NCBI GenBank assembly: GCA_016190205.1
Contig: JACPQZ010000043.1
Coordinates: 1 to 36,918 of the forward strand
Source: Candidatus Omnitrophota bacterium
Lineage (GTDB): Bacteria > Omnitrophota > JACPQZ01
Direction: 5' to 3'
Length of the DNA: 36,918 nt
Positions 5,934-34,261 of this stretch are shown piece after piece. The stretch's first letter is position 1. Each line of letters opens with the position of its first letter. The translations under genes were made by a program, and so were the position numbers. The notes beneath the pieces are model-generated. The model saw nothing but the letters and a program-made list of their open reading frames with translations. It had not been told where the DNA came from and did not search any database.

Positions 5934-5967
5934 GTCAAGCACGTCCTACGAGAGATATGCGTGATTC

Positions 5968-6057
5968 GTACTGCGTACAGCGTACAGCGTACTGCGTGTA
6001 GAGTACCGTGCGTAGTAAAAGCCTGCGATTCACGATCCACGATTCACGATCCACGAA

Positions 6058-6060
<3 letters not shown>
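5968..6060. repeat. Heptad array between aroF and tyrA
   Basis: Two blocks of 7-nt-period repeat fill the gap. The first (5968-6009) reads GTACTGC, GTACAGC, GTACAGC, GTACTGC and decays from there. The second (6026-6060) is CGATTCA, CGATCCA, CGATTCA, CGATCCA, CGAATCA. The last heptad contains the aroF stop codon. No gene, promoter or T-run is seen. Confidence 0.85.
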
Positions 6061-8186: not shown

Positions 8187-8226
8187 GTAAATAGCTTCCT
8201 CCCGTACTGCGTCCTTCGCTTGCCGC

Positions 8227-8471
8227 GTATCTCGTATCTCGTGAAGCGTATCTCGCAAACCGTTGCTCGTCTATCGCCTGTCGTGAGTGGTGAGTGATGG
8301 GTGATGAGACTGTCACATCACACACCCCTCAACACACACCCCTTCGTGCGTATCTCGTATCTCGTGAAGCGTATCTCGCAATCGGATGTTACTACGTTTG
8401 CGCTTCACGCTTCACGAGCGACGCTTCACGCATGTGGTGCGCCACGCTTCACGCGCCACGATCGTTCACGA
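8227..8471. repeat. Composite heptad-array element between pheA and hisC
   Basis: About 245 nt of 7-nt-period sequence. It holds GTATCTC, GTATCTC, GTGAAGC, GTATCTC at 8227-8254 and again at 8350-8377; a 34-nt block is identical between 8225-8258 and 8348-8381. The centre (8283-8346) has GTGAGTG, GTGAGTG, ATGGGTG and a partly inverted CACA-rich half. The part nearest pheA (8402-8471) has GCTTCAC, GCTTCAC, GAGCGAC, GCTTCAC and ends over the pheA stop codon. GTGAAGC and GCTTCAC are reverse complements, so the element can fold on itself. No gene or promoter is visible. Confidence 0.85.
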
Positions 8472-10812: not shown

Positions 10813-10896
10813 GGGTATCGGGTATCGGGTACCGGGTACCGGGAAGCGGGAAGCGGGAAGCGGGGTTCGGGCGAAGCACGAGGCATGAAGTACTAG
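10813..10896. repeat. Heptad array between trpS and scpA
   Basis: Consecutive 7-nt units on the plus strand: GGGTATC twice, GGGTACC twice, GGGAAGC three times, then GGGGTTC, GGGCGAA, GCACGAG, GCATGAA and GTACTAG with growing decay. The unit mutates stepwise along the array. No long inverted partner is seen, though GGTACC is itself palindromic. Remaining flanks (10794-10812, 10897-10908) hold nothing recognisable. Confidence 0.88.
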
Positions 10897-11941: not shown

Positions 11942-11953
11942 TTAACGGGTCTC

Positions 11954-12260
11954 GTTCTTCGTGCTTCGTGCTTCGTGCTTCGTTCGTCGCTGGTTGCTTG
12001 CCGCGTATCTCGTGAAGCGTATCTCGCCATTCAACCGAATGACCCCTTCGGTTACCGGTGTTCGGTGATCGGTTATCGCAAGAAAAGAAAAACCTTGGTC
12101 ATTCAGCTTTTACTGATAGAAGACAGCTAACAGCGCTTGCGATGACCGATAACCGATAAACGATCACCGATCAACGATCCTGCGATCACCGATGACCGAT
12201 CGACGAGCGACGCTTCACGAATCTTGCGCTTCACGATTCACGATTCACGATTCACGATCA
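11954..12260. repeat. Composite heptad-array element between xerD and trpS
   Basis: About 300 nt almost entirely of 7-nt period. In plus-strand order: GTGCTTC three times (11961-11981); GTATCTC, GTGAAGC, GTATCTC (12005-12025); CGGTTAC, CGGTGTT, CGGTGAT, CGGTTAT (12049-12076); a 55-nt non-periodic centre; GATGACC, GATAACC, GATAAAC, GATCACC, GATCAAC (12141-12175); GAGCGAC, GCTTCAC (12205-12218); GCTTCAC and GATTCAC three times (12228-12255), ending over the xerD stop. The CGGTTAT and GATAACC halves are inverse complements and can pair. No gene is seen in this stretch; the trpS promoter lies beyond it. Confidence 0.87.
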
Positions 12261-16467: not shown

Positions 16468-16547
16468 AGACTACAGACTGAAGACTGAAGACTTAACGAT
16501 AACCACCTCTTTTAGTCTGTGGTCTGTGGTCTGTCGTCTGTAATCTC
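16468..16547. repeat. Inverted pair of heptad arrays between acyP and the phosphoesterase gene
   Basis: Left arm AGACTAC, AGACTGA, AGACTGA, AGACTTA (16468-16495). Right arm TAGTCTG, TGGTCTG, TGGTCTG, TCGTCTG, TAATCTC (16513-16547). The arms are imperfect reverse complements around a 17-nt loop. The right arm is exactly 35 nt and abuts the acyP stop codon. There is no T-run, so this is not a standard intrinsic terminator. Confidence 0.88.
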
Positions 16548-16820: not shown

Positions 16821-16838
16821 ATCCGGCTCATACCCGTT

Positions 16839-16915
16839 CGGTCATCGTGGATCGGTCATCGTGAATCGCAAACATCTTGCGATCACCGATCACCGAAAAC
16901 CGATCACCGAATCTA
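16839..16915. repeat. Inverted pair of heptad arrays between the peroxiredoxin gene and acyP
   Basis: CGGTCAT, CGTGGAT, CGGTCAT, CGTGAAT, CGCAAAC (16839-16873) faces GATCACC, GATCACC, GAAAACC, GATCACC, GAATCTA (16881-16915). The halves are inverse-complementary around CAAACATCTTG. The final heptad includes the peroxiredoxin stop codon (CTA on this strand). Confidence 0.88.
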
Positions 16916-24572: not shown

Positions 24573-24944
24573 TTAAATCGTCTGGCGGGCCTGGCGGCCT
24601 TTCACGAAACGGTCTATGGAGAGGGCTTCCTCTTCCCCGAGCGCCGGGAAAAAAATGGCCGTTTCGAAACGCCCCTTCGGCCCGACCGGGTCGCAGCGAA
24701 CGATCACCCCCTCGGTCCGGATCTCCCGGGTTCCCTCCCGCGGTCCCGGCCCGGTCGGCGGCAGACACAGGGAAATCTTTACGCGGGTCATGGGCTGAAC
24801 CTCCTCCGGCAAGGTGCACATAATCCCCGAACGGCTCAAGTTTTCCGCAGAAGCAACCAGGACAGCCCCCTGCCGCGTCACCTCGAGGGCGAAGCTCGCC
24901 TTGATGCGGGGGTGCGCCCGCCGTTCACTCTGTTTTCTCGTCAT
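24573..24944 (-). CDS. PilZ-domain protein (predicted c-di-GMP receptor)
   Basis: A small 123-residue protein with the two PilZ ligand motifs. RRAHPR near residue 9 matches RxxxR, and NLSRSG near residue 36 matches (D/N)xSxxG. These bind cyclic di-GMP in the family. There is no partner domain, so it is a stand-alone receptor or adaptor. A run of AAGGAGGAGGGAGG precedes the ATG, a very strong ribosome site. The signal's target is not evident; motility or secretin-linked functions (a secretin lies at the window edge) are possible. Confidence 0.85.
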   Translation of the reverse strand: MTRKQSERRAHPRIKASFALEVTRQGAVLVASAENLSRSGIMCTLPEEVQPMTRVKISLCLPPTGPGPREGTREIRTEGVIVRCDPVGPKGRFETAIFFPALGEEEALSIDRFVKGRQARQTI

Positions 24945-24983
24945 CCTCCCTCCTCCTTCTTCCTTCCTCCATCATCTATCGCC

Positions 24984-25025
24984 CGACGTCCAACGTCCCA
25001 CGTCCAACGTCCCACATCCTCACAT
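24984..25025. repeat. Heptad array between argS and the PilZ gene
   Basis: CGACGTC, CAACGTC, CCACGTC, CAACGTC, CCACATC, CTCACAT run in step over 42 nt. The last unit contains the argS stop codon (25020-25022). ACGT is repeated in each of the first four units. No inverted arm is seen here. Confidence 0.82.
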
Positions 25026-27490: not shown

Positions 27491-27661
27491 GTCCGTCGCT
27501 CGTCGCTAGGGACTGGTCGCTAGCAAACAAAAACTTCGTCGGTCGTTAGTGGCGGGTTTCCTGTTACCAGCGAAGAGCGACTGCTTTTTTGCTAGCGACC
27601 AGCGACTAGCGTTGCTATTTACTGTTTCTTGCTAGCGACCAGCGACCAGCAACTAGCGTGT
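27491..27661. repeat. Inverted heptad arrays between the second CorC-like gene and the DUF5679-like gene
   Basis: GTCCGTC, GCTCGTC, GCTAGGG, ACTGGTC, GCTAGCA (27491-27525) is the reverse complement, 20 of 23 over 27504-27526, of GCTAGCG, ACCAGCG, ACTAGCG (27589-27611). A second copy of the latter, GCTAGCG, ACCAGCG, ACCAGCA, ACTAGCG, is at 27631-27658 and ends 3 nt before the stop codon of the upstream gene. The two halves can form a 23-nt stem. Confidence 0.88.
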
Positions 27662-30446: not shown

Positions 30447-30460
30447 CATAATATAATTAG

Positions 30461-30633
30461 ATACCAGCAACCAGAAACCAGTAACCAGATAGATACCAGA
30501 GACCAGATACCAGGTCCGTACTTCGAACTTCGAACATCTGCCTTCGAAGTCCGAAGTTCGATGTCCGATCGACGGTTTCGTCTGGTTTCTGGTATCTAGA
30601 ATCTTCTGGTATCTGGCAACTGGTATCTGGTTA
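30461..30633. repeat. Large inverted heptad element between proA and nadD
   Basis: 173 nt, nearly all 7-nt period. Left arm: ATACCAG, CAACCAG, AAACCAG, TAACCAG (30461-30488), a 4-nt slip, then ATACCAG, AGACCAG, ATACCAG (30493-30513). Centre: CTTCGAA twice, CATCTGC, CTTCGAA, GTCCGAA, GTTCGAT, GTCCGAT (30521-30569). Right arm: CTGGTTT, CTGGTAT (30582-30595), CTGGTAT, CTGGCAA, CTGGTAT, CTGGTTA (30606-30633). Arms are reverse complements, and TTCGAA is self-complementary. The last heptad contains the proA stop codon (TAA). Confidence 0.92.
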
Positions 30634-31875
30634 CTCTCTGATTTGTCCCGTCCCCCTGACCACGTACTTATAGCTCGTGAGGTCCTCGATCCCCATGGGC
30701 CCACGGGCATGGAATTTATCGGTCGAGATGCCCACCTCCGCGCCGAATCCGTAGACCCCCCCGTCGGCCAGCCGGGTTGAGGCGTTGACAAATACGCTGG
30801 CAGAATCCACCGCATGCACGAAAAGCTCCGCCGCGCGTTTATTGCGTGTGACGATGGCATCGGAATGCTGGGAGCCGTAACGCGTGATATGGCGAACCGC
30901 CTCATCCAGCGAGGGGACGACCCGCACGGCGAGGATGAGATCCAGATACTCCTCGTACCAATCCTGTTCCCGCGCCTCTTTAATCCCGGGGAGGATGCGG
31001 CGCGTCACCGGACAGCCCCTCAACTCCACTCCCGCCTCGAGGAAGAGTTTTCCGAGCCGCGGTAGGACAACCGGCGCGATCCGGCGGTGCACGAGCAGGG
31101 TCTCCATGGCGTTACAAACCCCCGGCCTTTGAACCTTGGCATTATAGGCAATTGCAACCGCCTTCCCAATATCTGCGTCCCGGTCGATATAGACGTGGCA
31201 GTTGCCCCGGTAGTGTTTGATGACAGGAATCCGCGAGAGGGCGGCGATCTTGCGGATCAAGGCCTCCCCTCCACGAGGAATAACGAGGCTGACGTTCTCC
31301 GTCTCTTTAAGAAGAAGGTTGACGGCCGAGTAGGCCCGCGTCTTAACGAAACCGATTGAGGCGGGCGGGAGATTGAAGGAGGCGAGAGGCTTCCTAAGGG
31401 CGTCAACAATAGCCCGGTTGGTCTCAACGGCCTCCCGCCCGCCCCGCAGGATGACAGCGTTCCCAGACTTTAGGCACAGGCTCGCGCAATCGGCAGTGAC
31501 GTTGGGCCGGGACTCGTAAATAATGAGGATCACCCCGAGCGGCACACTCACCTTTTCGATCCAAAGCCCGCTGGGGCGTCTCCAGCGCTTGAGCACGCGG
31601 CCCACGGGATCCTTAAGATGCGCGACCGTGCGGACGGCCTCGGCCATTTCTTCAATCCGCCCGTGATCGAGATACAGCCGGTCCTTCATGGCTGCGGTGA
31701 GCCCAAACCTTCCTGCCTTCCGAAGGTCTTTCTCGTTTGACCGGCGAATGGCCCTCCAGTCCCTTTCCAGCGCCCGCGCCATTTTAAGAAGGAGGCGGAC
31801 CTTGACCCTCGAGTCCAAAAGGGCAAGCGTCGACGCCGCCTGCTTTGCTTGCACACAAATTTTATGAATCGTCAC
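30631..31875 (-). CDS. proA: Glutamate-5-semialdehyde dehydrogenase (gamma-glutamyl phosphate reductase)
   Basis: Reduces gamma-glutamyl phosphate in proline synthesis. Motifs: PLGVILIIYESRPNVTADCASLCLKSGNAVILRGG, the catalytic cysteine in RPGVCNAMETLLVH, and GTGQI-type end. Length about 414 from GTG 31875 (VTIHKICVQAKQAAS). The open frame extends to 31941 through array-derived codons, and the exact start is uncertain; no clear ribosome site precedes the GTG. It follows proB across a heptad element. The TAA stop sits in the next array. Confidence 0.95.
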   Translation of the reverse strand: MTIHKICVQAKQAASTLALLDSRVKVRLLLKMARALERDWRAIRRSNEKDLRKAGRFGLTAAMKDRLYLDHGRIEEMAEAVRTVAHLKDPVGRVLKRWRRPSGLWIEKVSVPLGVILIIYESRPNVTADCASLCLKSGNAVILRGGREAVETNRAIVDALRKPLASFNLPPASIGFVKTRAYSAVNLLLKETENVSLVIPRGGEALIRKIAALSRIPVIKHYRGNCHVYIDRDADIGKAVAIAYNAKVQRPGVCNAMETLLVHRRIAPVVLPRLGKLFLEAGVELRGCPVTRRILPGIKEAREQDWYEEYLDLILAVRVVPSLDEAVRHITRYGSQHSDAIVTRNKRAAELFVHAVDSASVFVNASTRLADGGVYGFGAEVGISTDKFHARGPMGIEDLTSYKYVVRGTGQIRE

Positions 31876-31908
31876 TTCAGCATACCCAATCGGCGTCTCA
31901 TGCCTCCC

Positions 31909-32133
31909 GTATCTCGTGAAGCGTATCTCGCCAGCCATCACTCGTCAACCGGCTGTCATGAGGGGTGTGTGATGGGTGGTGAGACCAGGCTCATCACTCA
32001 CCACTCAGCACACACGACAAACGATGCTCTCCATGTAAGTTTGCGATTCCTGTGTCGGCTTTCGGCTGACGGCTGATAGCTGATGGCTGAAAGCTGACGG
32101 CTTCACGGTTCACGAGCGACGCTTCACGCACTC
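31909..32133. repeat. Composite heptad-array element between proB and proA
   Basis: GTATCTC, GTGAAGC, GTATCTC (31909-31929) near proA. GTGTGTG, ATGGGTG, GTGAGAC (31965-31985) faces TCATCAC, TCACCAC, TCAGCAC (31991-32011), an inverted pair. Then eleven heptads in step: GGCTTTC, GGCTGAC, GGCTGAT, AGCTGAT, GGCTGAA, AGCTGAC, GGCTTCA, CGGTTCA, CGAGCGA, CGCTTCA, CGCACTC (32057-32133), ending over the proB stop. Same family as the elements at 8227 and 11954. 32012-32056 holds no recognisable signal. Confidence 0.9.
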
Positions 32134-34233: not shown

Positions 34234-34261
34234 GTCCCAAGTCCCAGGTCCCATGTCGTTG
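34234..34261. repeat. Short heptad run before obgE
   Basis: GTCCCAA, GTCCCAG, GTCCCAT, GTCGTTG: only three clear 7-nt units, upstream of obgE and after the rpmA terminator. It is weaker than the other arrays and could be chance or a young or decayed array. Confidence 0.5.

Follow-up and report, generated by a model that had tools for sequence, protein, structure and literature searches.

Heptanucleotide arrays of an Omnitrophota genome as probable ends of small S23p-encoding mobile elements and their gene-less derivatives

What are the tandem 7-nt repeats that fill gap after gap between the genes of the Omnitrophota bacterium whose contig C33 (36,918 nt, hereafter the window) is analysed here? 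The question is posed most clearly by an element at 30459-30633, in which ACCAG heptads on one side face CTGGT heptads on the other. A first-pass annotation of the window had listed ten such gaps and considered transcript 3'-end structures, a polymerase slipping by 7 nt, or sites for a modular DNA- or RNA-binding protein. It is very probable that these arrays mark the two inverted ends of small mobile elements that encode the protein S23p, and of gene-less derivatives of these elements. A full-length element would measure about 0.4-0.6 kb, carry as its only gene that of the S23p/IVP four-helix-bundle protein (PF05635), and be laid out as array, S23p gene and inverted array. Each S23p lineage would have its own 7-nt word, and one genome would therefore hold many families, alike just in period and length. 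Internal loss would produce gene-less copies, which would settle between and within genes and often nest in one another; the ACCAG element of the window would be one of them.

The window belongs to a genome of 1.65 Mb in 76 contigs (93% complete), of which 1,647,403 of 1,648,513 bases were analysed. Across this genome, intergenic DNA showed a self-match of 0.320 at lag 7 compared with about 0.258 at adjacent lags, with echoes at 14, 21 and 28, and no lag-7 peak was found in its coding DNA. At a score of at least 13, 371 intergenic lag-7 arrays and a further 76 that overlap called open reading frames (ORFs) were detected, versus 7-10 intergenic arrays at each of the lags 5, 6 and 8-11, chiefly in seven contigs that consist entirely of N (C6, C10, C14, C22, C45, C53 and C58 of G000, about 2.2-2.9 kb each) and in which elements are not visible. 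The genome thus holds tandem 7-mers, intergenic for the most part, with no other period enriched, as in the short tandemly repeated repetitive (STRR) sequences of filamentous cyanobacteria. All ten gaps listed in the first-pass annotation contained tandem 7-mers, and the genome-wide enrichment that it had called for was found at lag 7 alone, inverted partners included. An assembly artefact, its other concern, is excluded because the same structures occur in independent genomes and complete plasmids. No close relative of this genome was found in the genome collection.

Five S23p (23S-rRNA-IVP, PF05635) genes are present in the genome, and four of them are bracketed by inverted heptad arrays, each of a different family (CGTACWG, CGTGCWT, TGAGTGR and ACCAG):

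C13:857-1168, S23p gene flanked by CGTACAG / CAGTACG
C21:23009-23323, S23p gene flanked by CGTGCTT / AAGCACG
C31:33670-33984, S23p gene flanked by TGAGTGR-like / CACTCAT
C24:40299-40613, S23p gene flanked by ACCAGNN / NNCTGGT, the family of the window element

The C24 element exists in further copies, namely an internally deleted one at C24:38958-39229, one with 124 identical nt that has another flank and reaches past the contig end at C24:47851, and one at the very end of C15. A founder with the gene, recent copies and a derivative losing the gene are thus found together in a single genome. As in miniature inverted-repeat transposable elements (MITEs), the inverted terminal repeats are common to the gene-less copies and the gene-bearing founder. 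The last upstream array ends a median of 20 nt before the S23p start, so that the heptamers lie directly upstream of the gene.

The same arrangement recurs well beyond this genome. Among 77 S23p loci examined (29 from Omnitrophota, 18 from plasmids and 30 from other genomes of several phyla), 58 had an adjacent heptad array and 39 had arrays on both sides, with the same word inverted on the two sides in at least 34 of these 39 (34 at no more than one mismatch). By comparison, only 4 of 73 control genes (LigA and ProA) had an array and none was two-sided (one-sided Fisher, P ~ 6e-20). PF05635 was present in 81 of 145 Omnitrophota genomes, and relatives of the S23p query were found in 29 of 72,556 plasmids, chiefly of filamentous cyanobacteria, the classical heptad-repeat organisms. 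The sampled S23p-free Omnitrophota yielded 2 arrays in 388 kb compared with 450 in 1.63 Mb of the present genome, and 9 of 12 foreign array loci lay in S23p-carrying genomes with at least five S23p copies each. Moreover, word distance dropped with rising S23p identity (Mantel r -0.157, P = 0.0005), and the word was within one mismatch in 64% of S23p pairs above 70% identity versus 2% of those below 45%. The family words of this genome were barely closer to S23p-element words elsewhere than shuffled words were (mean distance 1.0 vs 1.21). Conceivably, S23p genes just favour repeat-rich intergenic regions and the arrays are older and unrelated, given that arrays are frequent further out from S23p loci as well (14 in 55 kb of far flanks). 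The near flanks, however, are about six times denser (31 in 19.7 kb), the two sides carry the same word inverted, and clean empty sites lack the gene and the arrays together, which leaves this the least probable of the alternatives considered.

Those empty sites come from plasmids. Those of Trichormus variabilis and Scytonema carry an insert of 414-428 nt, which consists of an array of TCAGRAG, an S23p gene and the inverted array, and is bordered by the 5-bp repeat GTAAT; it is missing from the plasmids of Nostoc linckia, Tolypothrix and N. carneum, the flanks of which are 97-99% identical. Nostoc ATCC 53789 and C052 carry a 417-nt insert of the TCAGRAG word family at another locus (flanks 92-96%), and at the following gene junction the former also has a 506-nt insert with a different word (flanks 91-94%). 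For other occupied plasmid loci, relatives without the S23p gene exist, with less clean borders. Insertion is thus documented for the gene-bearing form, in plasmids. The S23p genes often lie within operons (e.g., between cas6 and cas4, or between cas10 and cmr3), and in 12 of 15 scorable cases they point in the same direction as both neighbours.

Several further observations were made at the plasmid loci. The S23p elements of Anabaena sp. 90 (L280, word ACAGGTG) and Pseudanabaena galeata (L281, word AAAAGCT) occupy the same cas6-cas4 site; either one word took the place of another at this site or the junction has been targeted more than once. In the Nostoc N6 plasmid pNPM1 (L354), the S23p element is disrupted, with an annotated ORF cut to 240 nt and an insert of 599 nt instead of 417, and something has therefore entered or been duplicated within it. 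Three plasmid S23p loci without 7-nt arrays (L288, L291 and L294) have apparent 8-nt flanking arrays (e.g., GGAGATAA and CTCCTGCC), which may mean that some S23p variants use another step; an octanucleotide repeat class is also listed in a Geobacter paper (PMC2700814). Over the plasmid flanks, lag 7 was found in 21 of 36 windows, lag 8 in 8, and other lags in 0-2.

Array lengths are non-random. In the present genome, 166 of 391 blocks fell within a length peak of 30-32 nt, with small side peaks at 25 and 38; the peak corresponds to four heptads plus about 3 bases, i.e., five copies of a constant core (boxes) at 7-nt spacing, and the same quantisation was seen in foreign loci and next to S23p genes. 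The 582 blocks resolved into 48 families, 22 of them with at least four blocks, so that the units are family-specific rather than locus-specific as first thought, and family copies have sharp borders to unrelated flanks (e.g., (CGGGAAG)4CG at more than 10 places). These features bear on replication slippage, whereby a polymerase or repair system moving in 7-nt steps would expand short seeds in place, an origin that Mrazek et al. 2007 proposed for heptanucleotide repeats according to PMC4679880. The invariable period of 7, the published runs of as many as 43 copies in certain species (PMC4679880) and some long pure arrays (L280 and L281) agree with slippage, and owing to the latter it probably adds copies secondarily. 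As a source of the arrays it is very unlikely, as decaying copy numbers would be expected where a sharp peak at four heptads plus 3 nt was found, families are dispersed with sharp borders over unrelated loci, arrays are nearly absent from the sampled S23p-free relatives, and the plasmid insertions carry a gene.

Inverted partners, which the first-pass annotation had regarded as a general trait, proved common and yet not universal, with about 39% of blocks having one detected within 220 bp. Near pairs were the same word inverted in 29% of cases versus 5% of random pairs, nearly all inverted same-word pairs lay within 250 bp, and every family counted had a single polarity. When the families are oriented by this polarity, the inner side next to the array is A-rich (A 45-54% in its first two positions), as in GCAAAAAAG, which follows the 5' arm and whose complement precedes the 3' arm. 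A search of this genome for inverted arrays enclosing an autonomous element of 0.5-5 kb revealed no clear excess above 250 bp, the S23p copies being too few to register. Neighbouring unlike arrays gave no signal of a shared register (offset 0 in 5 of 18). The CGTACAG compound copies (gaps on C17, C18, C37, C54 and C13) retain a conserved spacer, cgtcggggcgagcaaagatt, between two direct arrays, and the copied unit is therefore larger than the array in that family.

Alternatively, selection may have favoured RNA hairpins that act as terminators, attenuators or RNase III sites, with the inverted heptads as their stems. Folding of the arms is indeed strong (median z -8.3), A-runs follow the 5' arm and T-runs precede the 3' arm, and the stems of 23S rRNA intervening sequences (IVSs) are cut by RNase III in several bacteria (PMC4990558). 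Against this, variant heptads are not mirrored between the arms (68 pairs, mean mid-p 0.64), a result that equally disposes of fold-back copying, and in the CGTACWG family the sense strand favours CAG over CTG in both arms (87:36 and 98:40), creating stem mismatches; base pairing of the arms is consequently not the conserved feature. In addition, many arrays are single, and arrays are scarce between convergent genes, although few such gaps exist. Long gaps lie mostly between same-direction genes (413 of 465 genome-wide), and arrays are rarer in the few convergent and divergent gaps; within the window, every called gene is on the minus strand. Selection for hairpins is thus most unlikely, and the narrower proposal of transcript 3'-end structures is also at odds with the arrays located just upstream of start codons and inside genes.

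A third possibility is that the elements are REPIN-like and moved by a Y1 (RAYT) transposase, with S23p as a passenger. Four Y1_Tnp genes do occur in the genome, and REPINs are also gene-less inverted doublets, relatives of which flank a transposase gene (PMC3116915). No heptad array flanks any of these four Y1 genes, and the gene between the arms across phyla is S23p, making this route most improbable. The explanation by G-quadruplexes suits G-rich words alone and fails for ACCAG, CGTACAG and CGTGAAT.

If the arrays are the ends of S23p elements, the structure of the protein suggests how they may be read. The S23p fold is a toroidal homopentamer (PMC4990558), and the structure of its homologue 2gsc was solved with five chains. 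With five subunits in the ring and five boxes in an array, each subunit may take one box along a single strand, i.e., the homopentamer may wrap single-stranded RNA or DNA of the element, five boxes amounting to 31 nt. A mechanical analogue is the trp RNA-binding attenuation protein (TRAP), a ring of eleven subunits that binds one triplet box per subunit in trp regulation in Bacillus; no sequence relation is claimed. B-DNA has about 10.5 bp per turn, and a 7-nt step hence fits a wrapped single strand better. The upstream array would let S23p act on its own leader, and since it ends so shortly before the start, binding could set the translation of S23p itself. Binding of the ends may also mark the element for copying; no reverse transcriptase (RVT_1) that could serve as copier was found in the genome. 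The early proposal of a modular DNA- or RNA-binding protein therefore comes close to the best explanation in the form of the S23p pentamer, with the binding itself presumed by analogy. It seems an even bet that all bacterial heptanucleotide repeats trace to one hitherto unrecognised, recombinase-free class of element, in which a pentamer would read five boxes of its own word at the ends and recruit a host or foreign enzyme to copy it, protein and word co-evolving into many orthogonal pairs in the same genome.

Several points weigh against S23p elements as the source of the arrays. The fifth S23p gene of this genome (C16) has no 7-nt array, a resident S23p gene was found for just 4 of the 22 larger families, and many arrays are single, without an inverted partner. 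Elsewhere, 19 of the 77 S23p genes have no heptad array, and the closed 1.14-Mb Omnitrophota chromosome CP070655.1 (L052) has typical inverted arrays and no PF05635 hit. The target repeat does not appear constant, being a clean 5 bp in one insertion event and 0-3 bp in others, and 114 elements showed no excess of target-site duplication over shuffled pairs. Shared descent may partly contribute to the link between word and protein. Furthermore, no catalytic activity and no function are known for S23p, and it would be unsafe to credit the protein alone with moving DNA.

Among known systems, the closest are the 23S rRNA IVSs of Coxiella, Leptospira and Brucella, which likewise have an S23p ORF between inverted repeats and whose ORF in Coxiella is immediately preceded by three to four tandem heptamers (GACAGAT); they have long been suspected to be mobile or selfish (PMC4990558). 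IVSs sit in rRNA helices, whereas the present elements occupy plasmids and sites between or within protein genes, each family has its own word, and gene-less copies run into the hundreds. We class the full-length copies with S23p/IVS-type elements, as a separate non-rRNA, multi-word form. REPIN/RAYT systems (PMC3116915) resemble them in having a gene-bearing founder, short inverted end repeats, many gene-less doublets and an own gene per family, but the RAYT protein belongs to the Y1 transposases and REP sequences are palindromic, whereas S23p is no known enzyme and its ends are five-box heptad arrays.

In many genomes, no long simple repeat is commoner than the heptanucleotide kind (Mrazek 2007, as cited in PMC4679880), known examples being GGGAATC in Xanthomonas, with inverted pairs (PMC4692102), TAACTGA in Beggiatoaceae (PMC4679880), and four copies of GGGACCG in Geobacter metallireducens, also within genes (PMC2700814). 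Like the present arrays, these and the cyanobacterial STRRs are tandem 7-mers that are chiefly intergenic and sometimes genic or in inverted pairs; four copies are typical in Geobacter, and Xanthomonas campestris has both heptad repeats and an S23p of solved structure (XCC0516, 2gsc). They differ in comprising one or few words per genome, and their unexplained origin has been attributed to slippage, G-quadruplexes or regulator binding. The kinship to cyanobacterial repeats suggested at the outset holds, while the supposed differences in unit and inverted partners vanish, as cyanobacterial plasmids show inverted arrays with several words. The small dispersed repeats of Nostoc that Elhai and colleagues described in 2008 are reportedly 21-27 nt long, mobile, nested and often embedded in tandem heptamers; they differ in being non-tandem sequences and are not known to be linked to S23p.

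In the papers found on heptanucleotide repeats, no link to S23p is drawn. As far as our searches of mainly open-access literature reach, it is apparently new that arrays form the ends of S23p elements across phyla, that one genome can have many private words, that gene-less derivatives account for a large share of intergenic repeats, that the array length is five boxes, and that empty sites exist. The heptanucleotide repeats of cyanobacteria, Xanthomonas, Geobacter, Beggiatoaceae and others have been without an accepted source, which S23p elements would supply, and joining them to a protein of solved structure makes it directly testable whether the pentamer recognises its word and which enzyme copies the element. 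If each S23p does read its own word, nature would offer in these elements a large collection of orthogonal protein-nucleic acid pairs that use a simple repeating code.

Judged by sequence, the window element at 30459-30633 is a gene-less ACCAG copy. The opposed ACCAG and CTGGT heptads reported at 30461-30633 are confirmed and more structured than described, in a 4+3 / 3+4 layout with an inner inverted pair of TTCGAAC-type heptads (30517-30569):

30459-30513, plus strand, left arm (consensus NNACCAG): four heptads, (AG)ATACCAG CAACCAG AAACCAG TAACCAG, a short shift, and three more, ATACCAG AGACCAG ATACCAG
30517-30538, plus strand, left half of the inner nested array, CGAACTT-type, at the position held by the S23p gene in the full-length copy
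30545-30569, minus strand, inverted half of the inner nested array, CGAAGTC/TTCGAAG-type
30581-30633, minus strand, right arm, 3 + 4 heptads CTGGTNN, overlapping the proA stop codon (proA, 30631-31938, minus strand)

Its arms and layout match the S23p-bearing C24 copy around 40190-40690, and the element recurs, whole or partial, at dozens of sites in the genome. The other arrays of the window are as follows, three of their families having the resident S23p copies described above:

5967-6060, gap with a CGTACWG array (5967-5997; S23p copy on C13) and a CGATYCA array (6026-6060)
8226-8471, gap with CGTATCT arrays (8226-8242 and 8349-8365), a TGAGTGR array (8284-8308; S23p copy on C31) with CACTCAT-type heptads, and GCTTCAC heptads
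10813-10864, plus strand, GGGTAYC and CGGGAAG arrays, joined
11952-12258, compound gap with a TCGTGCT array (S23p copy on C21), CGGTGAT / CGATCAC inverted arrays, and a TTCACGA array flush with the xerD stop codon
16468-16541, inverted pair AGACTGA (16468-16496) / GTCTGTG (16515-16541)
16838-16911, inverted pair TCGGTCATCGTGAA-type (16838-16868) / CGATCAC (16880-16910)
24944-25019, TCCTCCT and ACGTCCM arrays, the GGGACGT family as its complement on the plus strand
27491-27661, gap of the AGCGACC / GTCGCTG family, clearest array at 27634-27658
31909-32133, compound gap between proA and proB with CGTATCT, CACTCAC-type (31990-32024) and GGCTGAN (32055-32102) arrays
34234-34257, plus strand, GTCCCAA array, absent from the first-pass list

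Arrays also occur just upstream of start codons, and some are translated in frame within conserved proteins:

C47:10690-10788 (L134), in-frame array
C60:14677-14706 (L147), in-frame array
C59:27632-27663 (L193), in-frame array
C23:12278-12307 (L111), in-frame array
C13:17557-17594 (L021), in-frame array

The genes concerned encode glutamate synthase, CarA, lipoamide dehydrogenase, FtsK and phosphoglucomutase, with peptides such as RDVGRGT and REAGSGKREAG. KdsB, considered as a further case of array insertion, was rejected due to its ambiguous alignment. In glutamate synthase, a 99-nt compound array adds about 33 residues and splits the amidotransferase domain, and in CarA the array is part of a longer insert region. 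For annotators, array-encoded peptides in conserved proteins such as glutamate synthase, CarA and FtsK would be insertions.
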